64,000 bases of DNA from an uncultured Methylococcaceae bacterium (GCA_903934875.1 CAIZPP010000067.1:1-64000), one strand, 5' to 3'; counted from the first letter of the stretch, positions 9,957-27,729 are shown. Notes: generated by a model from the letters alone, not told the origin. A program made the numbers and translations.

Positions 9957-10919
9957 TTATGCTAGTTTTTCATCTGCAATCCCCACCGTGGACTTGACCA
10001 AATAAGGCGGGCGGGCTTTGATTTCCTCGTAAATCTTGGCGATGTACTCGCCGATGATGCCTAAGCTGATCATAATGAAACTGCCGATCAGCAGCAGCGT
10101 AATGATGATGGTGGCAAAGCCGGAAACCGCTTGCCCGTGATACCAAGACCATAGCGCCTCACTCGCCACGGCGAAACCCAGCACCAGCGTCAACAAGCCT
10201 AAAAAAGTGACGATGCGCAAGGGCACACTGGTAAACGAAGTCAAGGCGGTGATGCTCAACTCCACCAAGGACCAGAACGACCATTTGCTTTCATTCTCAA
10301 TGCGGTTGGACACATCGAATTCTATATATTCCTCGTTGAAGCCTATCCAACTGGACAGCCCCCGGAAAAACCGCTCCCTCTCGGGCAATTGCCCAACCAG
10401 TATATCCACGATTTCACGGTCCAGCAGTTTGTAGTCGGAGGAATTATGGATGTTGATGCCGCCCATCCGGGAAATGATTTGATTCACCGCCAAGGCGGCC
10501 AAGCGCTTGCCCACGCTGTCGGTTTTCCGGCTGCGCTTCACCGCATGGACGATCTTTGCCCCCTCACGCCATTTCGCTATCATGTCAGGAATCAATTCGG
10601 GAGGATGTTGCAGGTCTGCGTCAATGGCGACAACCGCCCTGCCTCGCGAATATTTCAAACCTGCCAACAACGCCGCCTCCTTGCCGAAATTGCGGCTGAA
10701 AGACACCCCCCTGACCCTGGATTCGGTTTGGGCGTAGCGGCAAACCCGTGCATAGGTATTGTCACGGCTGCCATCATCAATCACGAGGATTTCCCAAGCG
10801 GCGGAAACCGTTTGCAAAATCCCGGCGATGGTTGCCAAGGCACGATCCACGCCCTCCCCCTCGTTATAGGCGGGAATGACGACACTGATTTCAGGCAACA
10901 GGCTTAGTGGTGTATTCAC
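9957..10919 (-). CDS. GT2 undecaprenyl-phosphate glycosyltransferase (ArnC/FlmF2-like)
   Basis: 320-residue family 2 glycosyltransferase with two C-terminal membrane helices (about residues 233-255 and 266-291), the layout of ArnC, GtrB and DPM-type enzymes. SVVIPAYNEGEG starts the GT-A fold, and AIDADLQHPPELI carries the DXD-type metal site. The start is a GTG inside the end of the deacetylase gene (29-bp overlap). It is the last gene of an operon with a GT87-like protein, an ArnT-like transferase and a YdjC-family deacetylase. By analogy with Francisella FlmF2 it could load an N-acetylated hexosamine onto undecaprenyl phosphate; the sugar is not visible from sequence. Confidence 0.83.
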   Translation of the reverse strand: MNTPLSLLPEISVVIPAYNEGEGVDRALATIAGILQTVSAAWEILVIDDGSRDNTYARVCRYAQTESRVRGVSFSRNFGKEAALLAGLKYSRGRAVVAIDADLQHPPELIPDMIAKWREGAKIVHAVKRSRKTDSVGKRLAALAVNQIISRMGGINIHNSSDYKLLDREIVDILVGQLPERERFFRGLSSWIGFNEEYIEFDVSNRIENESKWSFWSLVELSITALTSFTSVPLRIVTFLGLLTLVLGFAVASEALWSWYHGQAVSGFATIIITLLLIGSFIMISLGIIGEYIAKIYEEIKARPPYLVKSTVGIADEKLA

Positions 10920-11754
10920 GGTAGTTTATCAAACGAATATTAAGGGCCTCGAACAATGCCTTGACGCCGGGGCCGGTCAACAAGGCCAATTCGTCTTCCC
11001 AAGCATGATAGGACAACAGGCGCGGATCGGCAATTTCGGCGGGGTCGAAATGGCCGGGATGGCACATTAGTTCATAGGTCGCACCCGGCTTCAGGGTGGC
11101 AAGCCGCTTGTGCAGATAAGCCAAATCGAGTTTGCCGCTACGTCCCAAACCGATGAAAATTGGAAGCTCCGCGACCATCCGCAAACCGTTGACCGTTGCC
11201 AACGCTTGCAGCAGAACATTCCTTAACACGGCAGAAAAACCCAATGGCGGCACCCACTCGGCGCGGGTCAACCTCACATGGGGAATCTGGTATTTCCCGG
11301 CGAGTTCCTTGGTCAACAGGTGCAAGTTGGGCAACATGTGGATGTGCTCGTGAGAATTCAGGAACTGGGGCTTTATGCCATAATTGATGACTGTTTCAAT
11401 CTGGGCACTCCATTCCTCCCTGACGCTGTCCAAACCGACACGTCCAGCAACAAGCTCTCCCGTCATCGCAAAAACCCCTGGAAACTGCCCTTCCCACTTG
11501 CCGAGTTGTTCTGCCATCCTGTAGGTCAAGGGATTGCGCGAAGTCAAATTAAGGTGTACGCCTAAATCAAGGTTTTCATACTCGCAAGTCCAGGCGATTT
11601 GCTTCTCCAACTGCGGCCCGTTAGCGAGTATGCCTGTGGCTGTGACCGTGCCCGCAGCCACGGCCTCAAGTATGCCTCGGGTGACACAGGGATAATAGCC
11701 GTAATCATCGGCGTTGATAATCAATTGTATGGGTAGGCTCGCCATCTCAAGCAC
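10891..11754 (-). CDS. YdjC/ChbG/NaxD-family carbohydrate deacetylase
   Basis: Predicted metal-dependent deacetylase of about 284-287 residues. The metal site is visible as INADDYG (D16/D17), GVHLNLTS (H67) and NSHEHIHM. YELMCHPGH supplies a further conserved His. Family members include ChbG (chitooligosaccharides), HpnK (hopanoid clusters) and NaxD (undecaprenyl-linked GalNAc in Francisella). Its position between an ArnT-like and an ArnC-like gene favours the NaxD role. The frame opens with GTG at 11754; ATG at 11745 (MASLPIQ) is an equally good start. HpnK remains possible, since no other hopanoid gene is visible to decide. Confidence 0.85.
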   Translation of the reverse strand: MLEMASLPIQLIINADDYGYYPCVTRGILEAVAAGTVTATGILANGPQLEKQIAWTCEYENLDLGVHLNLTSRNPLTYRMAEQLGKWEGQFPGVFAMTGELVAGRVGLDSVREEWSAQIETVINYGIKPQFLNSHEHIHMLPNLHLLTKELAGKYQIPHVRLTRAEWVPPLGFSAVLRNVLLQALATVNGLRMVAELPIFIGLGRSGKLDLAYLHKRLATLKPGATYELMCHPGHFDPAEIADPRLLSYHAWEDELALLTGPGVKALFEALNIRLINYREYTTKPVA

Positions 11755-11781
11755 CCGGCTTTAAGGATATGGCCACAGACA

Positions 11782-13329
11782 TCATTGCCCCTCTGGCCGG
11801 GAGAAACGATACAGCAGCAAATAACCGTTATGGGCACCGACTGGCTGCAAACGTCTTTTGATGGCTTCGGGGAGATCGGCCCAACTCCTACGGGGGCATG
11901 CGAAAAAATTCTGCTTGGGATTGTCCATCGCCGCCTGGAATTCTTCGACATTGGATAGTTCGCCCACTTTGCCACGGGTGTAAAACTGAGCGGAGTAGGG
12001 GTTTTCCCACAGATAAACCAACTTGTCCTCACTGCCCTTGCGCAGTTCCAAATACTGTACCACTAGGGCCTTTTGAGTGCGGACAAACTTGAAAGGCGCG
12101 ACTTGCCAAGCCATCACCGCAACTAAAAACAAGGCGGGGGACAAGATGCCGATTGCAAATGCAATCCGGTCATTGGCAAACCAGCCTAAGCTGCCATCCC
12201 TCCGCCATTCGGCAAGCAGCAAGGCGCAACCCGGCAACCCGGGCATGACATAGGTCCAGATGGCATTCGCAGCCAGCGTAAAAAACATCAGCGGCGCGAG
12301 CATCCACAACAGGCAATACAAGCGCCAGCCATCGGGGCAATCCAACAAATGGCTGACATTTCTGCGCCAGATCGCTGTGCCTAGCACGGCGAGAAAAACC
12401 GGCGACCACGGCAGCGCCGCAAACAGCCAATAGAGCCATATACTGCCGGGGGCATGGGCACGGCCACTACCGTAGAGATCGCCCTGCCAGCCCTTCTCAG
12501 TGAAACGCTTCCAATGTTCACCGACAATGAAGTATTCCAAAAAACCTGGTGTGCGATGCTCGGCAAGCAAATACCAAGGGACACTGACGGCCAGCATCAA
12601 CAAAGTGCCCTTGACCCAAGGCAAACCGCGCCAGACAGCGTTCCATTCGTTACGAACCAGTGTCCACAACCCAAGCGGAAGGCCAACCAAAACCAGTGCC
12701 ACCGGCCCTTTAGACAACAGCCCAATGGACAGGCCGATGAAAAAGAGGTAGCCGTAATAGGGCTTGCCTTTGTGCAATGCCAGCCAGAACGAGACCATAG
12801 ACAGCGTGACCCCTAAGGTGAGGCACTGGTCCATTGCGACACTTCCGGCCATGATGAAAAACAACACCATACCAGCGAGAATCGCCACAGCAGTAAAATC
12901 TTGCTCTCTTCCATGCCGGACGGCGGCGCGGCCAACGAGCCAAACCGTTCCCACGCACAGCAGCAGGGCCGACAGGCGCGCAGCAAACTCGTTGATGCCA
13001 AAAATGCCAAGTGAGAATGCGTTCAACCAAACAGCCAAAGGCGGCTTGCCCCAAAACGGAATGCCGTAACCGATTTGCGGAGTGACCCAAACACCTGTTT
13101 CTAGCATCTTGCGGGCCATTTCCGCATAGCGGCTTTCGGTCGGGTCTACCAACGGGTAAAGACCGAGTGTGACCAAGCGGATAGCCAACACCAACAGCAG
13201 AAACACGGGACCTAGCCTGAATAGGGTCAGGGGTTTATCCCGCCAGTTTTTTCCCAAACTCAGCACGTTCGCCGCAAATTGTTTGCCGACCTGCTTCCAA
13301 ATCGGATTTTCATGGCCAGTGGCACTCAT
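11782..13329 (-). CDS. ArnT-like membrane glycosyltransferase (PMT/GT83 family)
   Basis: 515-residue multi-spanning protein with about 11-12 hydrophobic segments and a C-terminal periplasmic domain. The first periplasmic loop DPTESRYAEMARKMLETG matches the acidic active-site loop of ArnT enzymes, followed by the conserved PFWGKPPL. ArnT enzymes move an amino sugar from undecaprenyl phosphate to lipid A phosphate on the periplasmic side. Its ATG overlaps the stop of the upstream GT87-like gene (ATGA), and 27 bp separate it from the deacetylase. With those neighbours it is a candidate FlmK-type amino-hexose transferase. The specific sugar is inference. Confidence 0.85.
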   Translation of the reverse strand: MSATGHENPIWKQVGKQFAANVLSLGKNWRDKPLTLFRLGPVFLLLVLAIRLVTLGLYPLVDPTESRYAEMARKMLETGVWVTPQIGYGIPFWGKPPLAVWLNAFSLGIFGINEFAARLSALLLCVGTVWLVGRAAVRHGREQDFTAVAILAGMVLFFIMAGSVAMDQCLTLGVTLSMVSFWLALHKGKPYYGYLFFIGLSIGLLSKGPVALVLVGLPLGLWTLVRNEWNAVWRGLPWVKGTLLMLAVSVPWYLLAEHRTPGFLEYFIVGEHWKRFTEKGWQGDLYGSGRAHAPGSIWLYWLFAALPWSPVFLAVLGTAIWRRNVSHLLDCPDGWRLYCLLWMLAPLMFFTLAANAIWTYVMPGLPGCALLLAEWRRDGSLGWFANDRIAFAIGILSPALFLVAVMAWQVAPFKFVRTQKALVVQYLELRKGSEDKLVYLWENPYSAQFYTRGKVGELSNVEEFQAAMDNPKQNFFACPRRSWADLPEAIKRRLQPVGAHNGYLLLYRFSRPEGQ

Positions 13330-14675
13330 TCTGCGAGACTATCGGCGGTGGGCTTAGCACCAAACCTACGCTGGGCCACGACGAGCAGAACTGACCAAAC
13401 ACCCAAGCTGGCCCAACACAACAAGCGCTGCAACTCCATGCTCTTGTCCAGGTTGGTCCACAAGGAAAAGACGAAACACAGGAGCAATGCCCCCAAAGCC
13501 AGCCTACGGGAAAATAGGTCATTATCGTGTAGAAGAATGGCCGTCAGCACGGCAAAGGGCAAAACCAGCAAACCGAAATAATGGGTTTCCGAGATGGGTG
13601 GAATCAACAGATTCCACATAACAAAGGCCGAAACCACCACAAGCTGGGTTTTGCCTGCGGATTTTTTCGCCGTCCAAGCCATGACGGCGAACATCCCCAA
13701 GGCAATAACCGCCAGTAACGGTTTGGTCTGTTGCGGTGGTGTCTTCAAACTGAGCAATAGCGCTTCCAGGGATTGATTGCGCGGCTTCTGGCTGTCCAGC
13801 AATTGGGCGTAAAGGAAATTACCCTCTCGCGTCTGGTTGGCGGATAGTGCCGGTCCTGCGACTATCTGCCCCCATTGCTGCCAATAGTCCAAGTTTTTTT
13901 GCCAACCGTATACCGCAGAGGGCAGTATCAAGCCACCCACGCTTAAAAAAAATAAAAACGCAGCGACGAAACGCCATTGCCTTTGCCATGCAAAATAAGC
14001 CAAGAGGGCGATGGGGAAAGCCTTGATCAAGGTCGCCGCCGCCAAAGCCATGCCGCCCCAGGCATGGTGACCGCGCCACCAAAAATAGATTGCCGCAATC
14101 ATCAGCCAGATCATAAATTCCGAAGCCTGGCAACGCATCAAACCGGAAACCAGCCAAGGAGATGCCAATAGGACGGGCACTTGCCACAAGGTCCAAGCGT
14201 CTGCCAGAGGCATTTGCCACACACACCCTGCGTTATTTTTGCCGACTGCGCTTGGTGCGACTTCACCTGCCAGCTTGACTGCCATGATGGTGGCGGAGAT
14301 CAAACCCGCCAGTGAAATCAGATACCAGAGTCCACTCCCCCAAGCCAGCGGGAGCTTAGCGAACGGCACCGTCAAAATGGCAAACGGCGGGGGATAGACA
14401 TAAAGCCAGCCATGTATATTTTGTGCCTTATAGATATTTGTACCATCAATGACGGCTTGGCCCGCCGCACGATAAACGGTGAAATCGCCACGCTCCACAT
14501 CGTTCCAAGCCACGTTATAGATCGTCCGGTAACCCACAGCGAGTAAAAAAATCGCCATTAAAGCAAGGAACAACCAGCGTCCCCAGTCGATTGATGGCTT
14601 GGGGGATTTGTTGCCCGGTGTGCCAACAAGATTATCAGCCTTGCCTGGCCGAACATTTTCCTGTGAATAATTCAT
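13326..14675 (-). CDS. GT87/DUF2029-family membrane glycosyltransferase
   Basis: About 449 residues if translation starts at the ATG ending at 14675; the longer frame to 14735 would need a TTG. About ten hydrophobic segments are present. The loop YVYPPPFAILTVPFAKLP is the hallmark of the DUF2029/GT87 polyprenol-phosphate mannosyltransferase-like family. It is first in the four-gene operon with ArnT-like, deacetylase and GT2 genes and probably adds another sugar from a polyprenyl carrier. No clear Shine-Dalgarno sequence is seen at either start. Confidence 0.75.
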   Translation of the reverse strand: MNYSQENVRPGKADNLVGTPGNKSPKPSIDWGRWLFLALMAIFLLAVGYRTIYNVAWNDVERGDFTVYRAAGQAVIDGTNIYKAQNIHGWLYVYPPPFAILTVPFAKLPLAWGSGLWYLISLAGLISATIMAVKLAGEVAPSAVGKNNAGCVWQMPLADAWTLWQVPVLLASPWLVSGLMRCQASEFMIWLMIAAIYFWWRGHHAWGGMALAAATLIKAFPIALLAYFAWQRQWRFVAAFLFFLSVGGLILPSAVYGWQKNLDYWQQWGQIVAGPALSANQTREGNFLYAQLLDSQKPRNQSLEALLLSLKTPPQQTKPLLAVIALGMFAVMAWTAKKSAGKTQLVVVSAFVMWNLLIPPISETHYFGLLVLPFAVLTAILLHDNDLFSRRLALGALLLCFVFSLWTNLDKSMELQRLLCWASLGVWSVLLVVAQRRFGAKPTADSLAE

Positions 14676-14792
14676 GTTTCTGGGGTGTTTAAAAATATTA
14701 AGGGCACTGTTGCTTGGGTTTGGCATCCATCCCAAGCCGTTAGTTTAACGGAGAATTCTAACCCAAAAAGGATATTAGCTGTATATTCACTT

Positions 14793-16457
14793 TCAACCGT
14801 GCCAGCCACTCCCATTTTGGATTTCCTCCTTCGGTATTATCCGCTCCATCATGGAGTGTTCGTGAGCCTGACGAAAACTCACTGGACGCAATAAACTGCG
14901 ACCCTCCCGCAGGCAGGTGCCCAACTCGGAAGAATAAGCCGCCAATGCCTCATCCGCCAGCATCTGAATTCGTGCAAATCCGGCATTGACCCCGTTGCGC
15001 AGGCCTCTGCGGGCGGTACGCTCATGGGAAGGTTTGATTTGCTGATTGATAAAAAAAGGCAGCAGCCATGCCATGGACACAATCAACACACTGTGGACGG
15101 CAAAATCAGCCCCTAAAAAACCTGCATGGGTCAGAGCACTTTGATAATAAGCGGTGAACGCCTGCCACGAAACCCAAGCCATCGCGGCCACCGGAAAAAG
15201 CGCCGCGCACAATGCGGTGAGTTTGAGCAACAGCCGCTGCATCCTGTTGCCAGGATTGGCCAAGGCCAAGCGCAACCCCTTTTGGGCCTCGTCTAGCATC
15301 AGTTTTGGGGCTGATTTTGCCACCCTAGCCAATTTGGATTGCAATGGCCTGATGGGCAGTTGGCGCTCGCTGGCCTCCACCAACAATCGGTCTAGGGCAT
15401 CTTGCAATTGCATTTGCGCCCATTCATCCCAAAGGATGGAAGCTGTAGTCGACGATGGGCTTTCTGGCTCTTTTTGCTCCAGCTTAATGGAACGCCGCAA
15501 TGGGCTGGCATCATGGTGTACAAATGCCGAAGCCACCTCAGCCATAGGCCATTGCAGGCCTTCCAACAAGCCCGCCACGCCTACGCCCCAAATCTCCTCC
15601 CATCGCCCCGGCAATCCCTCGATTGCCCCTGCTTCCCCTTCCAAACGACCTAGGCAGGCTATGACTGCGGCCTGCAGTTCATCCCTGCGGGCGTTCAAAG
15701 CCCGCTTTTCCAGTTGCTCCACCAAGTGGGTCTCGGACAAAACTTGAATCGCAGACTCCAGCCCGATGAATTCGTCGGGCTTGCGTTTATCCAACTCTTC
15801 CCGGCAATCCGTGCGAAACACCAATGGACTGGTAAAGCCTCCCTGGCGCAATAGTTTGATGAAATCCGCCACTTGCGCCTCCTGCCCACGGTCCCACTGG
15901 TTCATCACGAACAGCCACGCGTGCTTGCTCACATGCTCGCGTAACAGGCGCCAGCCCTTGTCGTCGCGGTAACGCTCGGGGCTTACCACATAAATAAGCA
16001 CATCGATATGCGGTAGCCAGTCGGCAACCAAATCCCGGTTGCTGGCTTCGGTGCTATCAATGTCGGGCATGTCTATCCACAATACTTGGCGACGGCTGTC
16101 ATCGCTATGGCGGGCAACACGCACCCGGTCCACCGGAAAGCTCTCCGGCAATTGGCGTATATGCAGAGATTCGTGCAGAAAAATCGACAGTTCCCGCGAA
16201 GTGGGCCGCTCCACCCCCACCTTGGCAATGGCCTGCCCCGCCAGCCGGTTTAGCAGGGTGCTTTTCCCCACGCCTGTGCCGCCAAAGAATGCCGCCACCA
16301 AGGGCCGGTGTGCGCCGGGTTCAAACAATCCGCTGGGGCTGCGGTTTTCCAAACCTTGGAGCCGGGCTATGTCGGCCTCCGCCAGCCAGCCGCCATCCCG
16401 TGCCTCTAGGACCCAGCGTTTGGCGGCTTGCAATTGGTGGTCGAATTCGTCGCTCAT
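14793..16457 (-). CDS. Dynamin/YfjP-like membrane-associated GTPase
   Basis: 554-residue protein with an N-terminal GTPase domain: P-loop FGGTGVGKSTLLNRL at about residues 54-68, switch II motif WIDMPDIDS, and the base-recognition motif NQWD. A helical middle region is followed by two hydrophobic segments near residues 420-440 and 455-475, suggesting membrane anchoring. Family members of this type are poorly characterised; some remodel membranes. No operon partner is visible. The start codon lies 2 nt from a degenerate CAGC-box half (16459-16485), which occupies the place of the ribosome binding site. Confidence 0.75.
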   Translation of the reverse strand: MSDEFDHQLQAAKRWVLEARDGGWLAEADIARLQGLENRSPSGLFEPGAHRPLVAAFFGGTGVGKSTLLNRLAGQAIAKVGVERPTSRELSIFLHESLHIRQLPESFPVDRVRVARHSDDSRRQVLWIDMPDIDSTEASNRDLVADWLPHIDVLIYVVSPERYRDDKGWRLLREHVSKHAWLFVMNQWDRGQEAQVADFIKLLRQGGFTSPLVFRTDCREELDKRKPDEFIGLESAIQVLSETHLVEQLEKRALNARRDELQAAVIACLGRLEGEAGAIEGLPGRWEEIWGVGVAGLLEGLQWPMAEVASAFVHHDASPLRRSIKLEQKEPESPSSTTASILWDEWAQMQLQDALDRLLVEASERQLPIRPLQSKLARVAKSAPKLMLDEAQKGLRLALANPGNRMQRLLLKLTALCAALFPVAAMAWVSWQAFTAYYQSALTHAGFLGADFAVHSVLIVSMAWLLPFFINQQIKPSHERTARRGLRNGVNAGFARIQMLADEALAAYSSELGTCLREGRSLLRPVSFRQAHEHSMMERIIPKEEIQNGSGWHG

Positions 16458-16582: not shown

Positions 16583-17179
16583 CTACGAGTTGCATGTTAA
16601 AAAATTCGCAATATGAATTACTCTGACTCTTTCACACATTTCATTAGGTATAGCCGTTGTGATATTATCTTTTAGGCGATCCAGAAATCTAACCAAATCT
16701 TGTTTTTTATCCTCGGCTATTTCAGGGTGAAATGGTGCATAAACAATACGATACTCTTGAGATTGATTTTGTAAATTTTCTGGAATATCTGAAATATGAT
16801 TATGCAGCTTACTTATTATTGTCAATGTATCTTTGAATTTTTGAACTAGTTCAGATAGAATTTTTTTATGCCTTTCCTTGACAAGATCGGTTCTTAATGA
16901 TCTGGACAGGTCACAACTTTTTAATTGATCTATTTCTGCTAATATAGCATTCTGTTGCCTATAAATATCGCTAAATTCGATCAAAGGAAATTTGTTATTT
17001 TCTTTGTAAATATAATCGACAGACTTCAGTTTATTAAGATTGCAATGTTGTTTCAATCCATTGTTATCGCCATCAACTTTGAGGCCATAAACGCCTAGTT
17101 CGATGCCAATTTCTCCAAACTCATGATCCATCAACTCAAGAAAGTCATTAAGTGATTTCATGCTTATTTTCATTTCCAT
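16583..17179 (-). CDS. Uncharacterised protein paired with an AAA ATPase
   Basis: 198-residue soluble, lysine-rich protein not assignable to a family by eye. The middle (about residues 65-140) is heptad-like and probably coiled coil. No nuclease motif such as HNH or a PD-ExK core is evident. It starts 9 nt after the ATPase stop, so the two genes are almost certainly one transcript. Both are markedly AT-rich compared with genes on either side and use A/T-ending codons, which suggests recent transfer. The pairing of an overcoming-lysogenization-like ATPase with a small unknown partner is common in phage defence; that role is inference here. Confidence 0.6.
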   Translation of the reverse strand: MEMKISMKSLNDFLELMDHEFGEIGIELGVYGLKVDGDNNGLKQHCNLNKLKSVDYIYKENNKFPLIEFSDIYRQQNAILAEIDQLKSCDLSRSLRTDLVKERHKKILSELVQKFKDTLTIISKLHNHISDIPENLQNQSQEYRIVYAPFHPEIAEDKKQDLVRFLDRLKDNITTAIPNEMCERVRVIHIANFLTCNS

Positions 17180-17188
17180 ATTGTATTG

Positions 17189-18586
17189 TCACTTGCTATC
17201 TAAGAACATATCATAAAATGACTTCCCTAAATCGTTCTTTATTGATGAAATTCTTTTGAATACGTCATCACTGATGTTTATTGATTCGCCTTTAGCAGAT
17301 AGCTGATTTATGCCAAAATGATCCTCTAAAATAAGAGATTCTTCTTTTTCCATGATATTCTGAATGCATTTCATCATATCAATACTATGACTAGCTATAA
17401 CAATATTAATACCTTTTTTACTCAACTCAAATAGAGTATTAATCATTATCTTTTGCCATGCCGGGTGCAGGTGAACCTCTGGTTCATCGACAAAAATATA
17501 GCTCCCATTTGCAAGAATGCCTCTTTCAATTAATAACAAAATGATCCCTAAATTAGTAATACCTAATGCTGTAGAGTGAAGATTGATGTTTTTAGCATAG
17601 CCTTCTTCTTTAAAATATAAATCACCAGATTTCGATATTATGATCTCACCACCGATTTCTTTTTTAATTGCTCCTTGCTCAAAACTAATACTGTCACTGC
17701 TTTTGATTTTATTTTTTAACAAATCAACAAGATCATAAAAATGCTTTGGGACACCTGAAAGATAATCGGTCTGCCTAAGTCGTCTTAACCTTAGAAACTG
17801 ATTACTTTCTCTAACAGAATTTAAAGCATCTATCATTTTCCAATAAACGGGTGACTCTAGGTATACAACATTATAAAGTTTTTGGAATTCATCAATACTG
17901 CTTGCATTTAAACTAAAAACTAATACTTCTTTTTTTATTTCTATTTTCCCAAGCTTATCTAAATTAAAGCTAGAAAACTCTTCATCACCAGAATGGTAAT
18001 TTTTAAGGTCAGTTAGATTGGATACTTGAAAGTTTTCTTTTAAAGCATTAATAACTCCATCTCTGATTCCTGCTACAAGACATTCGCTAGGGTTGTCAGC
18101 AATTTTTTTAAGCCGATTAATATTTTGCTTAATAGGGTCTGAATGCTCTCTAATCTTTGAGTATTTACGAGCTACTGTGGCTGACATTAGATTATTGAAT
18201 GAGCGTTCTAATTTGTCAATTGCTTCTTTTAACAAAAATGATCGAGATACTTGATTGGAAAAAGTATTCTTTACAAAAGTATCCTCAATTTTTTCTTCGA
18301 TTAGATTTATGCTTGATACAAAATCATTAAGGGCATAATTTACGGCCCAACTTGGATTTTGAAAAGTTGAACCTAATACTTCGGCAATCCTTTTAATCTG
18401 AGTAGTTCGTTTTAGCGTTTCAATTGTTACATGATCCGCATTGATTGTGCTAAAGAAACTATACAACGCTTTTGTAATGAAGCTTTTTCCAGACGAATTA
18501 GGCCCTGCTAATACAGTGAAAGGACGTAATTTTATGGTTGCATTATCAATTTTGCCAAAATTTTTAATGCTTATATCAAATTTCAT
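17189..18586 (-). CDS. AAA family ATPase (ABC-like, OLD/SMC-type fold), island gene
   Basis: 465-residue ATPase with Walker A AGPNSSGKSFITKAL at residues 27-41 and Walker B YIFVDEPEVHLHP near residue 360. An H-loop-like IVIASHS follows. The long middle region is helical and probably a coiled coil. No TOPRIM nuclease domain is visible at the C terminus, so it differs from classical OLD nucleases. The AT content is clearly higher than in the flanking GTPase and sigma-54 activator genes. It leads a two-gene operon, and a candidate promoter lies at 18640-18663. It may be a defence or toxin-type ATPase; no function is demonstrated by sequence. Confidence 0.75.
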   Translation of the reverse strand: MKFDISIKNFGKIDNATIKLRPFTVLAGPNSSGKSFITKALYSFFSTINADHVTIETLKRTTQIKRIAEVLGSTFQNPSWAVNYALNDFVSSINLIEEKIEDTFVKNTFSNQVSRSFLLKEAIDKLERSFNNLMSATVARKYSKIREHSDPIKQNINRLKKIADNPSECLVAGIRDGVINALKENFQVSNLTDLKNYHSGDEEFSSFNLDKLGKIEIKKEVLVFSLNASSIDEFQKLYNVVYLESPVYWKMIDALNSVRESNQFLRLRRLRQTDYLSGVPKHFYDLVDLLKNKIKSSDSISFEQGAIKKEIGGEIIISKSGDLYFKEEGYAKNINLHSTALGITNLGIILLLIERGILANGSYIFVDEPEVHLHPAWQKIMINTLFELSKKGINIVIASHSIDMMKCIQNIMEKEESLILEDHFGINQLSAKGESINISDDVFKRISSIKNDLGKSFYDMFLDSK

Positions 18587-19993: not shown

Positions 19994-21766
19994 TTACCCT
20001 TCAAGCGGATGGTTGAATTGCATCCGATTCAATTCCGCATAGAACGAATCGCGTGCCATCAACTCGTCGTGGGTGCCGGACTCCAAAATGCTCCCCGCCC
20101 GCAAGACATAGATCACATCGGCATTCTGGATGGTGGATAGCCGGTGCGCCACAATCAGCGTAGTGCGGTTGCGCATCAACACTTCCAGGGCATCCTGGAC
20201 GTAACGCTCCGATTCGGCATCCAAGGCCGAAGTGGCCTCGTCCAAAATGAGGATAGGGGCGTTTTTCAACAGAGCGCGGGCTATGGCGATGCGCTGCCGT
20301 TGCCCGCCGGACAGCACAATGCCTTGCTGGCCTACCTGGGTATCAAATCCCTGCGGCAATTCTTCGATGAACTCCAAGGCGTGGGCCGCCCTCGCGGCCT
20401 CTCTTATGGCATCCGCTGAGATTTCCACGCGGTTGCTGCCGTAGGCGATGTTGTTGGCTACGGTGTCGTTGAACAAGGTGACTTCCTGCCCGACATAGGC
20501 GATATGTTTGCGCAGATTGTCCAGCGTCAAATCACGGATGTTGTGCCCATCTATCAAAATCTGCCCTGCGGTCGCATCGTACAGCCTAGGCAATAGGCGG
20601 ATCAGCGAAGTTTTGCCACTGCCCGACTGGCCGACTAAGGCGATGGTCTTGCCTGAGGGAACGGTGAGGCAGATGTCGTCCAAAGCATTTTCCAGGCGGT
20701 CTTGATAACCTAGGCTGACATGGCGGTACTCGATCCGCCCTTCCACTTTGTCCAACTCTATGCTGCCTACATCCTTTTCCCGTTCCATATCCACCATCTC
20801 GAAAATGCTCTCGCTGGCGGCGACACCTTTTTGCACTATGCCTATCGCCTGGGTAAACCGTTTAATGGGGCTTTGCATCATCGCCATAGCGGCGATGAAG
20901 GCAATCAAACTGCCGGGGGTGATGGACTGGCGCACGGAATCCAAGGACACCGCATAGAGAATCGCCGAAAAGCCACTCACATAGATCAACTGGATCACCG
21001 ACCCGCTCATGGCGTTGGTGAAGATCAACTTCATCTGCTGCTTTTGGTTGTGTTCGTTCTCTTTGCCAAACTTGACGGTTTCATAAGCCTTGCCGTTGAA
21101 CACCTTGACGATGCGCTGGGCTTCGATGACTTCCTGGGTCACATGGCCCACGCTGCCCATGGAATCTTGGATGCGCGAACTGATTTTGCGGAAGCGCTGG
21201 GTGATTTTGCGCACACTGACGGCCAAAATCGGCGCGACGACCAGGAAGATCATCGACAACTGGATGTTTTCGTACAACATCAACGCGGTCAGCCCGATCA
21301 TGCTCAGGCCGTCCTTGACTATATTGACTGCGCCCTCGGTCATGGCCTGTGCCACTTGTTCGGTGTTGTACAGCAGTTTGGAAAGCAATTCGCCGGAGGA
21401 GGCACGGTCATAATACCCGCAAGGCAGGTTTAGAAATTGATCGAAAAGCTGGCGGCGCATATCGGCTATGATGCGGCGGCCGACCCAGCCGGAGCAATAA
21501 TCACCCAAAAAACCGGTAACACCCCGGATCAACGAAAGGCCTAGCAATATCCAAGGCGCTTGGCGCAGGAATGACGGATCGTGCTCGATAAAGCTGCCGT
21601 CAATCAAGGGTTGGATCAGCTTGGCGAAAGCCGGCCCGAGCATGGCGTAGATCGACATGGAAACCACCGACACCGTAAACATTTTCCAATGCGGCAAGCC
21701 ATAGCCGATTAGGCGGCGGTAGATCGAAAAGCTACTTTTCTTATTTTTTTGCGGGTATTTTTTCAT
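19994..21766 (-). CDS. msbA: Lipid A export ABC transporter MsbA
   Basis: 590-residue half-transporter with an N-terminal six-helix membrane domain and a C-terminal ATPase domain. Walker A is GQSGSGKTSLIRLL, the ABC signature LSGGQRQRIAIARAL, and Walker B ILILDEATSALD, followed by the H-loop His in IVAHRLST. Length and domain order match MsbA, which flips lipid A-core or related glycolipids across the inner membrane. It lies downstream of an O-antigen ligase gene in an envelope cluster. The ATG follows a CAGC-box end by about 2 nt, and no Shine-Dalgarno sequence fits between them. Export of another polyprenyl glycolipid is possible. Confidence 0.88.
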   Translation of the reverse strand: MKKYPQKNKKSSFSIYRRLIGYGLPHWKMFTVSVVSMSIYAMLGPAFAKLIQPLIDGSFIEHDPSFLRQAPWILLGLSLIRGVTGFLGDYCSGWVGRRIIADMRRQLFDQFLNLPCGYYDRASSGELLSKLLYNTEQVAQAMTEGAVNIVKDGLSMIGLTALMLYENIQLSMIFLVVAPILAVSVRKITQRFRKISSRIQDSMGSVGHVTQEVIEAQRIVKVFNGKAYETVKFGKENEHNQKQQMKLIFTNAMSGSVIQLIYVSGFSAILYAVSLDSVRQSITPGSLIAFIAAMAMMQSPIKRFTQAIGIVQKGVAASESIFEMVDMEREKDVGSIELDKVEGRIEYRHVSLGYQDRLENALDDICLTVPSGKTIALVGQSGSGKTSLIRLLPRLYDATAGQILIDGHNIRDLTLDNLRKHIAYVGQEVTLFNDTVANNIAYGSNRVEISADAIREAARAAHALEFIEELPQGFDTQVGQQGIVLSGGQRQRIAIARALLKNAPILILDEATSALDAESERYVQDALEVLMRNRTTLIVAHRLSTIQNADVIYVLRAGSILESGTHDELMARDSFYAELNRMQFNHPLEG

Positions 21767-21767
21767 G

Positions 21768-22039
21768 TACAGCGTTTTTATCTTAAAAATATACCTACTC
21801 CCGTATCACTCTAAAAATGGTTGATTGGTAGGATGGGCAAAGGCCGTCAGGCCGTGCCCGTCAAACAGCGCCGACCAAGATGGGCACGGCCCTAGGGGCC
21901 TTTGCCCATCATACACTTTGTCCAATTTTGTAGTGATTAGGGAGTAATGAAGGATATTCAGCTAATGGTCCAAGTTAACTGAATACCTTGCCCTTTCATT
22001 CCAGCTATCAAGTAACTCTTCGATATTAAAAGCGCTGTA
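21768..22039 (-). repeat. CAGC-box element, copy split by a nested insertion
   Basis: The left part starts TACAGCGTTTTTATCTTA beside the msbA ATG. The right part ends TCGATATTAAAAGCGCTGTA inside the 3' end of the O-antigen ligase gene. A 151-bp second element (21796-21946) separates the halves; the core GTTAACTGAATACCTTG continues after it. The element fills the whole junction between the two genes. Confidence 0.8.
21796..21946. mobile_element. TA-bounded MITE nested in a CAGC-box element
   Basis: Left end TACTCCCGTATCACTCTA, right end TTGTAGTGATTAGGGAGTA; these are imperfect inverted copies ending in TA. Inside is a long palindrome based on GATGGGCAAAGGCC. A fragment with the same left end, ACTCCCTTATCACTCTAA, is at 46736-46763. 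The insertion separates two parts of an otherwise recognisable CAGC-box element, so it came later. Confidence 0.7.
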
Positions 22040-23405
22040 AATCCCGTTGATTTTCAAGATGCACGGCATAGGTGAGGGCCGCCCATATCAGGGAATAGTT
22101 ACGCCAAGCATACTTGTATATCTGGAAATCAAAAAAAACCATAATCGCCATAAAAATCCAACCGGCAAACAGAAAGCATGCATAATCCCATCCAATACTT
22201 CCATTGGCTTGGGCTTTCCACACACCTGCCAAAAGCAACAAGGGCAAGGCCAAAAACGGCAAAGAGCCAAGCACACCGAAGCGCACTAGGAATTCGAGAT
22301 ACAGATTATGCAAGTGATACAAGTGCAGGGTTTCAATGCTGCCATCCTTGCGGGTTACGGATTGTGACAATAGGGGATTATTCTCTTGTTTAACCAATGC
22401 CTCAGTTGTTCCCGGACCCCACCCCAAGAAAGCCCTTTCCTTCCATTTCCGCCAGCCGATTTCCCACAGTATTTTACGGTAGCCAACGCTGCTGGTCATC
22501 AGAACCTCCTGTCCCTCAACCTGCATTTTGACCACTTCAGGTTCGGAACGCACTTGTTCGGCATTGATACGATTGAAAATGGTTGCATAATTTTCATGAA
22601 GAAAAAAAGCGGCCAATCCAACTATGATTGCCAAAATGACCAGGCTTTTGCTTGATATTTTCGCAGCGCCAATTAACGAGCCTTTATAGCGGACAATCAA
22701 AGCCACAGGCAATACCAAGGCCAAAGCCAGCCAAGCCCCACGCGTTTGATTTAACACGATGGATTCGAGTAAGATCAACAGGCAGACTAGCCAGACACTC
22801 GCTTTCAACCCTACTAGCCATCTTGCGCTAGCGGGCTGTTGACTCATCATGCTGGGCACAAGCAATAACAGGCCCAATACCGTGCCGCCTGCGATAGGCG
22901 CAAATACTGTTAGCGCCAATCCAAACCCAGTTCTTTCAACTTTTGCTAGATTCCATACATCAGCCCAATCAAAATTGACGATAATCCTGATCAGCAGGCT
23001 TGCGGCAAGGACCAGCAGCATACTGTTGATATGCTTTCTGTGCCGGAATTGCTGCCAAGCGACTGGAATGAAAAATAGCCAGTGCATAAAATTAAATGCC
23101 GCAATCCGTTGATCCTCGGCTGTTGCGGGAAACTCACAACTGGCCCAGACGGAATAACACAGGATGTAGAGGACGATCAATAGGAAAACCTGTGCCACAG
23201 GGTCTTGTTTTAACACTGGCATCCATGTTTTTGTCTGGAACACAAAAACGAGCCCCACAACCGCCAAACCGACATAGGCGACGGTGGCGTTAAGCTGGAA
23301 GAAGAGCAGAAAAAGGAAAAGCCCAAAGCCGCCAATAGTGTCAAGCCTGCTCAAGCCGGCATCACTGGCGTTTTCGTTGTGACTATTAAATGAGGCTATC
23401 AGCAT
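22026..23405 (-). CDS. O-antigen ligase/polymerase-like membrane protein (Wzy/WaaL superfamily)
   Basis: About 459 residues with 11-12 hydrophobic segments and the large periplasmic loop that defines the O-antigen ligase family. That loop includes RKILWEIGWRKWKERAFLGWGPGT and the LHLYHLHNLYLEFLVRFG His-rich motif. The longer frame to 23513 is unlikely: the ATG ending at 23405 lies within the end of the upstream GT4 gene (20-bp overlap) and begins a normal first helix. The enzyme would attach or polymerise polysaccharide on the periplasmic side. The last codons and the TAA stop are contributed by the CAGC-box element (QRF then stop). Confidence 0.82.
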   Translation of the reverse strand: MLIASFNSHNENASDAGLSRLDTIGGFGLFLFLLFFQLNATVAYVGLAVVGLVFVFQTKTWMPVLKQDPVAQVFLLIVLYILCYSVWASCEFPATAEDQRIAAFNFMHWLFFIPVAWQQFRHRKHINSMLLVLAASLLIRIIVNFDWADVWNLAKVERTGFGLALTVFAPIAGGTVLGLLLLVPSMMSQQPASARWLVGLKASVWLVCLLILLESIVLNQTRGAWLALALVLPVALIVRYKGSLIGAAKISSKSLVILAIIVGLAAFFLHENYATIFNRINAEQVRSEPEVVKMQVEGQEVLMTSSVGYRKILWEIGWRKWKERAFLGWGPGTTEALVKQENNPLLSQSVTRKDGSIETLHLYHLHNLYLEFLVRFGVLGSLPFLALPLLLLAGVWKAQANGSIGWDYACFLFAGWIFMAIMVFFDFQIYKYAWRNYSLIWAALTYAVHLENQRDLQRF

Positions 23406-24519
23406 AGGCGAAACCCAATACCTCCAAATAGCGTTGCGTGCTACTTTCAACGAAAAATGGCGCAACCGCCTCTCGCAATGCTGTGCCCGAAAGCGGGTTG
23501 GACAGGGTATCAAGCATAGCCTTGGCCATGCTTTGCGGGTCGCCTACGGGAACCAAGGCACCGAACTTGCCGCCTGCCAAGGTTTCACTCGGCCCGTACG
23601 GGCAATCGGTGGACATGGACGGAACGCCTAAGGCCATCGCTTCAATGAGTACATTACCGGAACCTTCCCAAGCCGAGGATAAAACGAATAATGCGGATTT
23701 CTTCATCCACGCGTAAGGGTTGGCGGCATATCCCGGCAATGCGACGCTTCCGGTCAAATCAAGTTCCGCCACTAGGTTTTCCAAATCTTGCCGCAGCGGC
23801 CCCTCGCCAATGATGACCAGTTTACAGCCTTCCCTTTGCCGCCGCACGATGTTAAACGCCCTAATCAGGGTGGCAAAGTCTTTTTCCTTGGTCAGCCGGC
23901 CGGCGCCTAGAATGACAGGAATGGATGGGTTGTTGAGCCAGGGGTGGTCTACCGGTTCTTCGCTTTTGCGGAATACATCCGGTGTGATAATTGGGTTGGG
24001 CAGGGCGACCAGACGCTCGCGAGGGTATCCAGCCACTTTGATGGTATCCTCAATAACACCCTCGGATACGGTGATGATCATGTCCACTAGTGGAAACAGC
24101 CAGCGCATGGGGGCACAGCGCACCCAGCGTTGAAAAGGGGTTTTGGTTTCCAAATAGCCCGATATATTATTGTGCAACTGCCCCACTAAACGCGTATCGA
24201 CACGGGCAAACAGACGGGCAAGCACTGCAATGCGAACTGCCCGGTCCTTGGCCGCCACCAACACATCAGGGCGTTCTTTCCGCAAATAGCGGGTCAATGC
24301 CGGCAAGGCAAGGTGCGTATGTTTGACTTTGAGGTCGATTACGCGAATGTTTGGCCAAGGGATTTCCGGCAACCAGCCTTTTTTGCCAACCACCGCCAAC
24401 AAATCAACATCGATATCATGGGTGGCCAAGCCTTGCAACAGATGATGCACTACCCGTTCGACACCGCCCGTGCCTGAGAATGCTACAAAAATTGCCAAAT
24501 GGGGACGTTTTGTGTTCAT
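23386..24519 (-). CDS. Glycosyltransferase family 4 protein
   Basis: 377-residue cytoplasmic GT-B glycosyltransferase. The N-terminal SGTGGVERVVHHLLQGLA is a donor/acceptor loop typical of GT4. The C-terminal half has VILGAGRLTKEKDF and the EX7E-type motif in SAWEGSGNVLIEAMALGVPS. It probably extends an LPS or exopolysaccharide chain. It is downstream of another GT4 gene and overlaps the O-antigen ligase gene. The ATG lies 3 nt from a full CAGC-box element, which leaves no room for a separate ribosome binding site. Confidence 0.87.
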   Translation of the reverse strand: MNTKRPHLAIFVAFSGTGGVERVVHHLLQGLATHDIDVDLLAVVGKKGWLPEIPWPNIRVIDLKVKHTHLALPALTRYLRKERPDVLVAAKDRAVRIAVLARLFARVDTRLVGQLHNNISGYLETKTPFQRWVRCAPMRWLFPLVDMIITVSEGVIEDTIKVAGYPRERLVALPNPIITPDVFRKSEEPVDHPWLNNPSIPVILGAGRLTKEKDFATLIRAFNIVRRQREGCKLVIIGEGPLRQDLENLVAELDLTGSVALPGYAANPYAWMKKSALFVLSSAWEGSGNVLIEAMALGVPSMSTDCPYGPSETLAGGKFGALVPVGDPQSMAKAMLDTLSNPLSGTALREAVAPFFVESSTQRYLEVLGFAYADSLI

Positions 24520-24522
24520 ACT

Positions 24523-24645
24523 TACAGCGTTTTCAACATCAAAGAATTACTTGATAGATGGAATGAATGGGCAAGATATTCAGTTAACTTGAAATGATAG
24601 CTGAATATGCTTTGTTATGCTTATTTTAAAGATGAAAATGCTGTA
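24523..24645 (+). repeat. CAGC-box element, full copy at a GT4 gene start
   Basis: Starts TACAGCGTTTTCAACATC and ends AAAGATGAAAATGCTGTA, 123 bp, with the AGTTAACTTGAAATG core. It is one of the best-preserved copies. It lies 3 nt upstream of the GT4 start codon (gene on the minus strand), so the transcript from the upstream GT4 gene must read through it. Confidence 0.85.
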
Positions 24646-24653
24646 TGGCTCAA

Positions 24654-24720
24654 CAAGTAACTCTTCAATATTAAAAACGCTGTAACTGAATAACCTGCGC
24701 TATCATATCCACTGAAGACG
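24654..24720 (-). repeat. CAGC-box half plus core fragment
   Basis: AAGTAACTCTTCAATATTAA followed by AACGCTGTA (to 24684) is an inverted half element. It is followed by ACCTGCGCTATCATATCC, which is the inner core of the family in reverse order. This arrangement suggests a rearranged second copy next to the full one. Confidence 0.65.
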
Positions 24721-24750
24721 TTTTTGCGTACGTCCTACTAGTGACAAATC

Positions 24751-24785
24751 AGACCGACTCGGTTTCTAAAACCGAGCCGGTCTTA
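24751..24785 (-). terminator. Strong hairpin after GT4 gene
   Basis: AGACCGACTCGGTTT and AACCGAGCCGGTCT form a stem of about 14 bp just downstream of the GT4 stop at 24791. No run of T follows on the coding strand, so termination may be weak or the hairpin may only stabilise the transcript. Confidence 0.5.
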
Positions 24786-24790
24786 GTGGC

Positions 24791-25882
24791 TCATCGACCA
24801 CCTTCCAGCGTTTCGACATAAACGCGGTGATTGTCTCTGACCATTCTGTCAATTGAAAAGCTCTCCAATACCAACTCCCGTCCAGCCAAGCTGAATTGCC
24901 GCAATTGGTCTGGATCATCCAGCAACGCGATGATATGTCTTGCCAAGCTTTTGCTGTCGCCGGGCTTGACCAGAAATCCGTTTAACTTATCCTGGACAAT
25001 CTCTGGTATGCCTCCGGCCCGGCAAGCGACGATGGGGACGCCACAAGCAGCCGCTTCCAGCAAAGCGACCCCGAGACCTTCCATGAACGCAGGATGCACC
25101 ACCATATCCACATAGGGAATGACTTTTTCAAGATCGGTTCGATAACCCTCAAAGCGGACGAACCTGTCCAAACCCTGCTTCTGGATGCTACGCTCCAACT
25201 CGTCCTTGAGCGGCCCCCGCCCAAAGATCAGCACACGGGCGCGTGGGTGTTTTGCCAGTATGGACGGCAGCGCCTCGAAAAAAACCGCATGTCCCTTGCG
25301 TGGGATCAGTTGCGCGATCATGGCCAACACCGGCCCGTCGCCAGTCAGGCCAAACTCCTCCAGAAACCCCTCTCGGTCTGCTTTAACCGGGCTGAACCGT
25401 TCCGTATCCACCGCGCTGGGAATGCAGATGACGCGCTCCTTCGCCACCCCCGCTTCCAACAACACCTCTCTGATGCCCCTTGAGATGGTAATGATTTTAT
25501 GGAATAGCGGAAATTTGAAGTGCAGGTCAAAAAAACTGGGAGGATTATCCACCCTGCGGCTGTGGACCATAGGAATTTTTTCCAATCGGCCCGCCAATGC
25601 CGTCAGCATATCGCCTCGCCGACTGTGGACATGCAACAAATCCGGTTTTTCATGGCGGATGACCTTGCGCAGACGGCCTATGAAGTTCAGGTCCACATCG
25701 CCTTTGGTTTTGATGCGGTGGATTTTCACATCCGGGTTGCTTATCGCACCGGCAATTTCCGCGCCTGCGGCGCAAACCAAGCCATATTCGCCGGAAAACT
25801 TTTGCAGGCCATTCAGCAAGTAGGCGACTTGTCTAGCACCGCCATAAAGGTGGCGGCCCATTTCCACATGCAGGATTTTCAA
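24791..25882 (-). CDS. Glycosyltransferase family 4 protein
   Basis: 363-residue GT-B glycosyltransferase. The N-terminal MGRHLYGGARQVAYLLNGL is the GT4 glycine-rich loop. The C-terminal half has MIAQLIPRKGHAVF and the EX7E motif in FMEGLGVALLEAAACGVPIV. The start is a TTG with GGAG 8 nt upstream. It follows the asparagine synthase-like gene by 26 bp and is likely in the same envelope polysaccharide operon. The sugar is unknown. Confidence 0.87.
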   Translation of the reverse strand: MKILHVEMGRHLYGGARQVAYLLNGLQKFSGEYGLVCAAGAEIAGAISNPDVKIHRIKTKGDVDLNFIGRLRKVIRHEKPDLLHVHSRRGDMLTALAGRLEKIPMVHSRRVDNPPSFFDLHFKFPLFHKIITISRGIREVLLEAGVAKERVICIPSAVDTERFSPVKADREGFLEEFGLTGDGPVLAMIAQLIPRKGHAVFFEALPSILAKHPRARVLIFGRGPLKDELERSIQKQGLDRFVRFEGYRTDLEKVIPYVDMVVHPAFMEGLGVALLEAAACGVPIVACRAGGIPEIVQDKLNGFLVKPGDSKSLARHIIALLDDPDQLRQFSLAGRELVLESFSIDRMVRDNHRVYVETLEGGR

Positions 25883-25908
25883 AACCCAACTCCAATTTTA
25901 TTTATTTT

Positions 25909-27729
25909 TCAGGCGATGAACTCAATGGGATTGGCGCAAACGTCAGGCTTCTCGCCATTGCCCTCGATAAAAATGCGATGCCAAACGGCAAACTGCAATA
26001 GTGCCCAGAGAATATCATGCACATCCTGTTTGGCTGATTGCCTGCTGACCAGCGCGGCGATGCCGGATGGTTGGAAAAGGCCGGAAAAAGCCCTATGCCC
26101 CGGCAAAATTTGCCGAAGTTTTAGCAGGTTCTCCCCTTGCATGCACAATCCCACCGGTACCGTAAACCCGCTCTTCCGACGCCGGACCAACTCGCTGCCG
26201 AAAATGGGTTCCGCCCAACGCTTCAGAAAGAGCTTGCCTTCGCGCCCGCGTACTTTGAGGTCATCGGGCAGGCGCATGGCGAATTCCAGCAAGCGGTGGT
26301 CCAACAGCGGGACGCGGCCTTCCAATCCCCATGCCATCAACATCCGGTCAACCTTGACCAATAGCTGGTCGGTCAATTCCGTAGCCATGTCAGTATATTG
26401 CATACGCTGCAAATCGCTCCAAACTTCAGGTGAGGAACCCCAGGCATTGGCAATCCCAAGGCGTCCGGCGGGAAAGCGTTCCCGCAACGCCGGACTCAGC
26501 AGGCGGTTCCGCCATTCTGCGCCGAGCATTCCACGGGTGCGGAACCCCCCAGAACCCGGCCTGCGCAGATTGGCCAGCCAACGCTGTAGCTTTGTCCGCC
26601 GGTAACGCCCGTAACCGGCGAATAATTCATCGCCCCCCTCGCCGCTGAACACGACTTTGAAGTCCTGCGCAACCACCCGCGCCAGCAACGAAGTGGGCAG
26701 GATGGCAGGGTCGATGATGAAATCGTCAGCAGCCCAGACCGCAAAAGGCATGTGGTTGAACAGCGTCTGCCAGTCCAGTTCAACGATGTTATGGCGCAAT
26801 CCGAAGCGTCTGGCGATGGTTTTTGCGGCCTCAGCATCCTCGTTTTTTGCCGCATCGGCAAAAGCGACGGTATAGGAGGCCAGTTCGCGCGTGCCTTCCT
26901 CCCGGCGCAACCATTCTAACACGACAGAGGAATCCACCCCCCCAGAGAGGAAAAGGGCGAATGGCACATCGCTACGCATGTGTTCTAGCATGACCTGCCG
27001 CATCAAGACCTCAAACGATTCCGCCGCTTCTTCATAATGTACAGGCGTAATGCTGAGGTCGAAGGGCGACCAGTAACGCTGCCGGGACACCAGCCTGCCC
27101 GACTGAAACGTAGCCACCTCACCCGGTTGCAGGCGCTCGATTCCTGCGACAATGGTAGCGGCCCCAGTGTTGAAGCGTGTTTCCAAACTTTGTATCAGGG
27201 CATCAGGCTGGATAGCCGGACCACCCGGCAGGATAGGGAAAAGCGCCTTCTGTTCTGACGCAAAATAAACCCCGCCGTTGGTTTCTGCAAAAAACAACGG
27301 TTTTATACCCAGACGGTCCCGCGCCAGAAGCAATTTTCCGGCCAGCCTATCGTATAGTGCGAAGGCAAACATGCCGTTAAGCCTTGCCAAAAATTCCTCG
27401 CCATAATACTGGTAGGCGTGGAGTATCGTCTCACAATCCGAATGCGTGGCAAAGACCGCGCCGAGTGCTTCCAACTCACGGCGCAGTTCAACAAAGTTGT
27501 AGACCTCACCGTTGGCAATCAATGCCAAACGTCCATTATCGGCGAACAGGGGTTGGTCGCCACCCGCCAAATCAATGATGGAAAGCCGGGTGTGGGCCAG
27601 CCCCAATGCCCCGTCCAAGTGCGTTTTTATCTTATCCGGCCCACGGTGGTCTAAGCGGCGAGCCAGACTGTCGAGGTCTGCACCTGCCGCAGCGTGTTGA
27701 CGCATATATATACCGGCTATGCCGCACAT
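25909..27729 (-). CDS. asnB: Asparagine synthase (glutamine-hydrolysing)-like amidotransferase
   Basis: 606 residues. The N-terminal class II glutaminase begins MCGIAG with the nucleophilic Cys2; GEVYNFVELR and the HSDCE segment are conserved. The C-terminal synthase domain has the PP-loop LSGGVDSSVVLEW. Cytoplasmic asparagine synthesis from aspartate, glutamine and ATP is the family reaction. Its placement between a VTT membrane protein and two GT4 genes, however, matches AsnB-like enzymes in polysaccharide clusters that may amidate a sugar acid. Which of the two applies cannot be read from sequence. Confidence 0.87.
   Translation of the reverse strand: MCGIAGIYMRQHAAAGADLDSLARRLDHRGPDKIKTHLDGALGLAHTRLSIIDLAGGDQPLFADNGRLALIANGEVYNFVELRRELEALGAVFATHSDCETILHAYQYYGEEFLARLNGMFAFALYDRLAGKLLLARDRLGIKPLFFAETNGGVYFASEQKALFPILPGGPAIQPDALIQSLETRFNTGAATIVAGIERLQPGEVATFQSGRLVSRQRYWSPFDLSITPVHYEEAAESFEVLMRQVMLEHMRSDVPFALFLSGGVDSSVVLEWLRREEGTRELASYTVAFADAAKNEDAEAAKTIARRFGLRHNIVELDWQTLFNHMPFAVWAADDFIIDPAILPTSLLARVVAQDFKVVFSGEGGDELFAGYGRYRRTKLQRWLANLRRPGSGGFRTRGMLGAEWRNRLLSPALRERFPAGRLGIANAWGSSPEVWSDLQRMQYTDMATELTDQLLVKVDRMLMAWGLEGRVPLLDHRLLEFAMRLPDDLKVRGREGKLFLKRWAEPIFGSELVRRRKSGFTVPVGLCMQGENLLKLRQILPGHRAFSGLFQPSGIAALVSRQSAKQDVHDILWALLQFAVWHRIFIEGNGEKPDVCANPIEFIA

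Follow-up and report, generated by a model that had tools for sequence, protein, structure and literature searches.

The four-gene operon

Positions 9,957 to 14,675 of a 64,000-nucleotide stretch of DNA (the window; CAIZPP010000067.1:1-64000) from the assembly GCA_903934875.1 of an uncultured Methylococcaceae bacterium hold a minus-strand operon, which in the order of transcription encodes a GT87 family protein, an ArnT-like GT-C glycosyltransferase, a YdjC-family deacetylase and a GT2 glycosyltransferase, and which probably constitutes a system for the transfer of a hexosamine to the cell envelope. An earlier note on this DNA had placed the four genes in one operon at exactly these positions, and the open reading frames (ORFs) together with a Pfam match for each protein bear this out. 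An ArnC-like GT2, a YdjC-family deacetylase and an ArnT-like GT-C thus occur together, as in the lipid A amino-sugar pathway of Francisella. The genes and their motifs are:

9957..10919, minus strand: GT2 of the ArnC/GtrB-like polyprenyl-phosphate sugar synthase kind, with C-terminal membrane helices (Pfam, PDB relatives, tree)
10891..11754, minus strand: YdjC-family deacetylase, its ATG start probably at 11745 (Pfam, motifs, AlphaFold2 model)
11053..11064, minus strand: CHPG motif of the deacetylase, invariant in an alignment of 10 homologues
11335..11358, minus strand: NSHEHIHM motif of the deacetylase with the metal-ligand His, the His residues invariant in the same alignment
11698..11715, minus strand: NADDYG motif of the deacetylase with the metal/base Asp, invariant in the same alignment
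11782..13329, minus strand: ArnT-like GT-C glycosyltransferase of the 'PFWGKPP' clade (Pfam PMT, PDB 5ezm, tree)
13039..13059, minus strand: PFWGKPP motif (YFEKPP in ArnT; Glu84 replaced by Gly, Lys85 kept), Gly or Ala in 26/26 clade members
13120..13143, minus strand: PTESRYAE motif (PDExRYAE in ArnT; Asp55 replaced by Thr, Arg58 and Tyr59 kept), Thr or Ser in 26/26 clade members
13326..14675, minus strand: GT87 family membrane glycosyltransferase, the first gene of the operon; the ORF opens at 14735, the ATG is at 14675 (Pfam PF09594)

For the GT87 gene the start at 14675 is preferred over 14735 because its relatives begin there. The GT87 and ArnT-like genes overlap by 4 bases (ATGA) and the YdjC and GT2 genes by 29 bases; the gap between the ArnT-like and YdjC genes is 27-36 bases. 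None of the four proteins reaches an NCBIfam cut-off. Promoter and terminator scans scored much as shuffled sequence does, and such repeats as turned up were short or weak.

The genome (5.4 Mb in 344 contigs) belongs to the genus of Candidatus Methylumidiphilus, methanotrophs of the Methylococcaceae. Five more genomes from the genus keep the four genes in this order and on one strand, an arrangement that is therefore not due to chance. A contig filed as uncultured Geobacter (L143, CAIWTU010000026.1) carries an operon near the Methylumidiphilus version (YdjC 65%, GT2 82%), with a GtrA fusion as described below; either mis-binning or lateral transfer would account for it.

The deacetylase and the GT2

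Profile, fold and Asp/His metal motifs agree in assigning the deacetylase to the YdjC (ChbG-HpnK) superfamily: it matches Pfam PF04794 with E = 6.9e-51, its PDB matches are ChbG-type proteins, and its AlphaFold2 model (mean predicted local confidence, pLDDT, 88.6) lies nearest to the structures of EF3048, ChbG and CmCBDA, which have the ChbG fold. The best NCBIfam match, chitin disaccharide deacetylase, scores 119.9 bits, far below the cut-off of 227. In a tree of 59 rows the protein falls into a clade of its own with 23 members (support 100/100), apart from the NaxD-like (100/99), HpnK (100/98) and ChbG proteins. As the Francisella reference served genome G329, assigned via the Francisella 16S primer site F11 and via its locus of YdjC, GT2 and FlmK-like genes (L134). 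In approximately unbiased (AU) tests, for which the groups were partly picked after the alignment had been inspected, nesting of the deacetylase within NaxD (p = 5e-4) and a common group with HpnK (p = 0.017) were rejected. Its clade as the sister group of NaxD gave p = 0.24 and as that of ChbG p = 0.087, neither of which is a rejection. The earlier note had suggested a tree of the deacetylase against NaxD, HpnK and ChbG and had named a grouping with HpnK, along with co-occurring hopanoid genes, as the outcome that would speak against its proposal; the grouping did not appear, although a hopanoid cluster lies elsewhere in the genome. The sample from the family comprised 31 other genomes, none of which has a close relative of the deacetylase, and a search of plasmids returned matches all below 30% identity, mostly annotated as ChbG or HpnK. 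We propose that it is an N-deacetylase of undecaprenyl phosphate-linked N-acetylhexosamine.

A different YdjC clade, of the HGDDLG/NADDFGIS type (L081, L082, L083, L084, L190-L195), also stands consistently beside a GT2 gene, several members with GtrA in addition; in L081 and L082 a protein of about 1240 amino acids adjoins the YdjC gene.

The GT2 matches Pfam PF00535 (E = 3.7e-29) and, in the PDB, sll0501 (1.1e-77) and ArnC (about 2e-44). All GT2s that adjoin the YdjC clade of the window form a single clade (100/100), which is separate both from the GT2s beside NaxD-like genes, those of Francisella included, and from the GT2s beside members of the transferase clade that lack a YdjC gene. The pairing is tight: of 49 loci with a deacetylase of the window's YdjC clade, 44 have the YdjC and GT2 genes within 600 bp of each other, and these loci span Methylococcales, other Gammaproteobacteria, Nitrotoga, Desulfosarcina and one metagenome-assembled genome of Nitrospirae. 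The GT2 is put forward as a candidate synthase of undecaprenyl phosphate-linked N-acetylhexosamine.

The carrier is suggested by a third kind of protein. In 15 relatives the ArnT-like protein has a fused N-terminal GtrA domain, recognized by Pfam and by a profile of our own, and five Methylococcales have GtrA as a gene of its own, together with one for a PMT_2 protein, ahead of the YdjC-GT2 pair. GtrA is the proposed flippase for undecaprenyl phosphate-linked sugars in three-component systems (PMC11127046), and its presence, fused or separate, beside YdjC-GT2 fits a sugar on this carrier that needs flipping. In the host genome four GtrA-domain matches lie elsewhere, so that a flippase acting in trans is possible. 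A vestigial GtrA N-terminus was sought; nothing of the kind was seen in the ArnT-like protein of the window (shuffle p 0.56), and the marginal values in G025 and G028 (p 0.008-0.015) are not claimed as such.

The fusions, each a flippase and a transferase in a single chain, are those of L143, L146, L148, L152, L153, L155-L159, L162, L167, L177, L183 and L207.

The two GT-C proteins

The ArnT-like protein matches Pfam PMT (PF02366, E = 1.1e-21) and the ArnT structure 5ezm (1.3e-26); its only NCBIfam match is the ArnT model, below cut-off. A search of 369 gammaproteobacterial genomes left a sharp gap between close relatives (E < 1e-75) and the remainder (E > 1e-38), and in the tree the protein belongs to a clade of 23 rows (100/99) apart from the ArnT/FlmK clade (100/99). 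Compared with the structure of Cupriavidus ArnT, whose numbering is used here, Arg58, Tyr59, Lys85, Lys203, Arg270 and Tyr345 are kept in 26/26 members of the clade and Asp158 in 25/26. Apart from Asp55 and Glu84, discussed below, the residues that PMC8306577 names as critical are retained. The protein is ArnT-like in build, yet by its clade and its full residue set it is not an ArnT or FlmK; we propose it as a periplasmic hexosamine transferase.

Members of this clade also occur on plasmids (L243, L244, L246, L248), two of them conjugative, in GtrA-GT2-GT39 cassettes with genes of two-component systems or of metal efflux or resistance nearby (EptA and DgkA genes in L248).

PimE is a polyprenyl-phosphate-mannose-dependent enzyme. 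The GT87 protein is PimE-like by its family profile (PF09594, E = 1.1e-19) and by its GT-C fold, the latter on a model of low confidence (pLDDT 60), for which reason the match to the nearest structure, PimE (9dm5, 1.6e-6), is supportive only. Close homologues were found in six genomes, within the family all of this genus, and no relative at E < 1e-8 was found in 368 other gammaproteobacterial genomes. In seven other loci the YdjC-GT2 pair has a distant GT87 protein as its GT-C neighbour; three that were aligned showed 21-23% identity. All six ArnT-like proteins of the genus lack the GtrA domain and have GT87 upstream, a correlation that counts as one data point because it probably goes back to a single evolutionary event. 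We propose the GT87 protein as a second GT-C, which probably takes its sugar from the lipid-linked donor of the first and passes it to a different acceptor, and the suggestion of the earlier note that it adds a further modification is plausible.

Proposed function

We consider it probable, with some reservation, that the operon encodes an extracytoplasmic system transferring a hexosamine to an envelope acceptor. In the cytoplasm the GT2 would load N-acetylhexosamine (GlcNAc or GalNAc) onto undecaprenyl phosphate and the YdjC enzyme would N-deacetylate the carrier-bound sugar, giving a lipid-linked hexosamine with a positive charge. The carrier would then be flipped by a protein encoded elsewhere, perhaps one of the four with a GtrA domain, and the ArnT-like GT-C would transfer the hexosamine to its acceptor, most likely a phosphate of lipid A or lipopolysaccharide (LPS); the GT87 protein would probably use the same donor. 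Conservation lends good support to the three-step logic of loading, deacetylation and transfer on the outer side.

Lipid A is a plausible acceptor, on the indirect evidence of the company that the transferase clade keeps. On an Alteromonas plasmid (L248) a member lies among genes for PAP2, two EptA-type proteins, GtrA and DgkA, and in G374 (L089) another stands beside an NaxD-clade deacetylase, a GT2 and GtrA, which links the clade to the remodelling of lipid A phosphates. In the window msbA (over the TIGR02203 cut-off) and an O-antigen ligase gene lie 5-9 kb from the operon. A limited literature search found no paper on the structure of methanotroph lipid A among the matches listed.

Several observations weigh against this proposal. 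None of the four genes in the operon encodes a flippase. In the genus member G026 only YdjC-GT2 is present, behind two GTPase genes, and neither a close ArnT-like protein nor a GT87 was found in that genome at the thresholds used; the pair may therefore function without both. In Plasticicumulans acidivorans and Desulfosarcina widdelii, too, YdjC-GT2 has no ArnT-like neighbour within the sequence covered. Among relatives the GT-C partner of the pair is exchanged (ArnT-like, PMT_2 with GtrA, GT87, DUF6056), and the genes flanking the operon differ between genus members, so that the nearness of msbA may be accidental. Two residues described as critical in ArnT (PMC8306577, PMC5377068) are replaced throughout the transferase clade, Asp55 by Thr or Ser and Glu84 by Gly or Ala (26/26 each), whereas the 12 classical members compared all have Asp at position 55 and either Glu or Asp at position 84; neither acceptor nor mechanism can therefore be assumed. 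Finally, we know of no established chemistry for any member of these enzyme clades.

If the proposal is correct, the decoration of the envelope with a hexosamine bearing a free amine, known mainly from pathogens, also occurs in environmental methanotrophs through enzymes of separate lineages, and a single YdjC superfamily would have contributed on more than one occasion to the assembly of the same order of reactions. It would also yield a rule, by which YdjC-GT2 supplies the donor and the GT-C next to it determines the acceptor.

Alternative explanations

The most serious alternative, which on balance we hold to be somewhat improbable, keeps the carrier chemistry and replaces the acceptor: the hexosamine would go to an exopolysaccharide, the O-antigen, an S-layer glycoprotein or another envelope glycan. 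The exchange of GT-C partners and the loss of Asp55 and Glu84 are in its favour, and O-antigens and teichoic acids are common targets of three-component GtrA/GtrB/GT-C systems (PMC11127046; PMC7389260). The presence of the ArnT-like clade with EptA, DgkA and PAP2 and beside NaxD-clade deacetylases speaks for lipid A instead, as does the retention of most donor and acceptor residues of ArnT.

A wider proposal is offered tentatively. YdjC and GT2, each in its own clade, may form a so far undescribed module for undecaprenyl phosphate-linked hexosamine that is the constant core in methanotrophs and other bacteria, while exchangeable GT-Cs (those listed above) each deliver its charged sugar to an acceptor of their own, which need not be lipid A; in Methylumidiphilus two transferases would share the module.

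It is quite unlikely that the GT2 and the deacetylase build an aminoglycolipid directly on a phospholipid, in the manner of GpgSDF, with the GT-C genes acting elsewhere. A glycosyltransferase, a deacetylase and a flippase can indeed decorate a membrane lipid (PMC12713373), and G026 has the pair without close ArnT-like or GT87 proteins. GpgS, however, belongs to GT4 and GpgD to the COG3233 deacetylases (PMC12713373), whereas the GT2 of the window is of the polyprenyl-phosphate synthase kind, and in relatives GtrA is fused to the GT-C.

Descent from the FlmF2-NaxD-FlmK pathway, with galactosamine-modified lipid A as product, is very unlikely and, as far as sequence comparison reaches, largely refuted. 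FlmF2, FlmK and lipid A galactosamine have been described for Francisella (PMC4688374, PMC8306577), the three kinds of enzyme are the same, and the AU test does not reject a sister position of the deacetylase clade to NaxD. The position inside NaxD is rejected, however, transferase and GT2 belong to separate clades (100/99 and 100/100), and the FlmK-type Asp55 and acidic residue 84 are absent. Of the Francisella-type pathway that the earlier note had suggested, the logic of GT2, YdjC and GT-C on undecaprenyl phosphate thus holds up, helped by the GtrA fusions, and the common descent does not, the three proteins lying in three separate clades.

That the deacetylase is HpnK and makes glucosaminyl-bacteriohopanetetrol with an HpnI-like GT2 (the hpnI-hpnJ-hpnK pathway; PMC12583986) is highly improbable. 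The host does have a squalene-hopene cyclase in a hopanoid cluster on another contig (C142, L046; with an HpnN-like transporter, most gene names being assigned by reading ORFs), and a genome-wide search found no YdjC protein other than the one in the window. Against this, the AU test rejects the grouping with HpnK, the GT2 is ArnC/GtrB-like, and a genome-wide search found no HpnJ above cut-off. No hpnI, hpnJ or hpnK was seen in the hopanoid cluster, and neither hpnI nor hpnJ beside the operon, hpnI not having been searched genome-wide. As a control within the family, G001 (L042) has a genuine hpnI-hpnJ-hpnK cluster, and the HpnK of such clusters is only about 25% identical to the deacetylase. 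On the strength of the tree, the genome content and this control the hopanoid role is rejected. A second squalene-hopene cyclase homologue, below cut-off, lies on contig C277 (L014) of the host.

Deacetylation of free chito-oligosaccharides by a ChbG-like enzyme with accidental gene neighbours, to which the best NCBIfam match, the fold and the AU result on ChbG kinship would point, is barely conceivable and is rejected on the gene context, as no chitobiose genes were seen beside the deacetylase gene and a membrane GT2 is tightly linked to it in the 44 loci given above.

Neighbouring genes

Directly upstream of the operon (14793-16457, minus strand) lies a gene for a Dynamin/Era-like GTPase, which does not adjoin the operon in G028 and G030; its counterpart in G026 is paired with a second GTPase gene (L037:3346-5175). 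Between the operon and msbA follows a pair of low GC content (39%; 16583-18586, minus strand), an AAA_15/AAA_21 ATPase and a partner of 198 amino acids, which give weak matches to the HEC-02A/HEC-02B defence models and are a candidate anti-phage island. From 19994 to 27729 (minus strand) extends an LPS or polysaccharide cluster, which encodes MsbA, a member of the O-antigen ligase family, a glutamine-dependent asparagine synthase and two glycosyltransferases of family GT4.

Comparison with known systems

With the FlmF2-NaxD-FlmK system of Francisella the operon shares a GT2 that would load undecaprenyl phosphate, a YdjC deacetylase and an ArnT-like GT-C, with the same proposed order of reactions. 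It differs in the separate, supported clades of all three proteins, in a transferase without Asp55 and the acidic residue 84, and in the extra GT87. On the tests run it resembles the pathway in its first steps and appears not to be a member by descent; an ArnT-like protein and a YdjC protein are thus by themselves insufficient to identify the Francisella pathway.

The arnBCADTEF system of E. coli, which attaches 4-amino-4-deoxy-L-arabinose to lipid A, likewise has an ArnC-like GT2, a deacylation of the lipid-linked sugar and an ArnT-like GT-C. ArnD, however, belongs to another deacylase family, the operon has no ArnA or ArnB, and ArnC and ArnT are in distant clades. The lgmA-D genes of Bordetella, compared here by description only, are also a multi-gene locus, whose ArnT-like LgmB attaches glucosamine to the phosphates of lipid A (PMC11401268, PMC11895810).

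GpgSDF of Pseudomonas aeruginosa, which makes the cationic lipid glucosaminyl-phosphatidylglycerol with a glycosyltransferase, a deacetylase and a flippase, employs the GT4 and COG3233 families and bulk phospholipid as acceptor, with no GT-C step. HpnI and HpnK, a glycosyltransferase and a YdjC-family deacetylase, also produce a lipid that bears a free amino sugar; their GT2 and YdjC clades are other than those of the window.

The three-component GtrA/GtrB/GT-C systems (PMC11127046) share with the operon a GT2 of the polyprenyl-phosphate sugar synthase kind and a GT-C, and GtrA is present or fused in relatives. The operon differs from them in having a deacetylase built in and, in this genus, in the absence of GtrA from among its genes.

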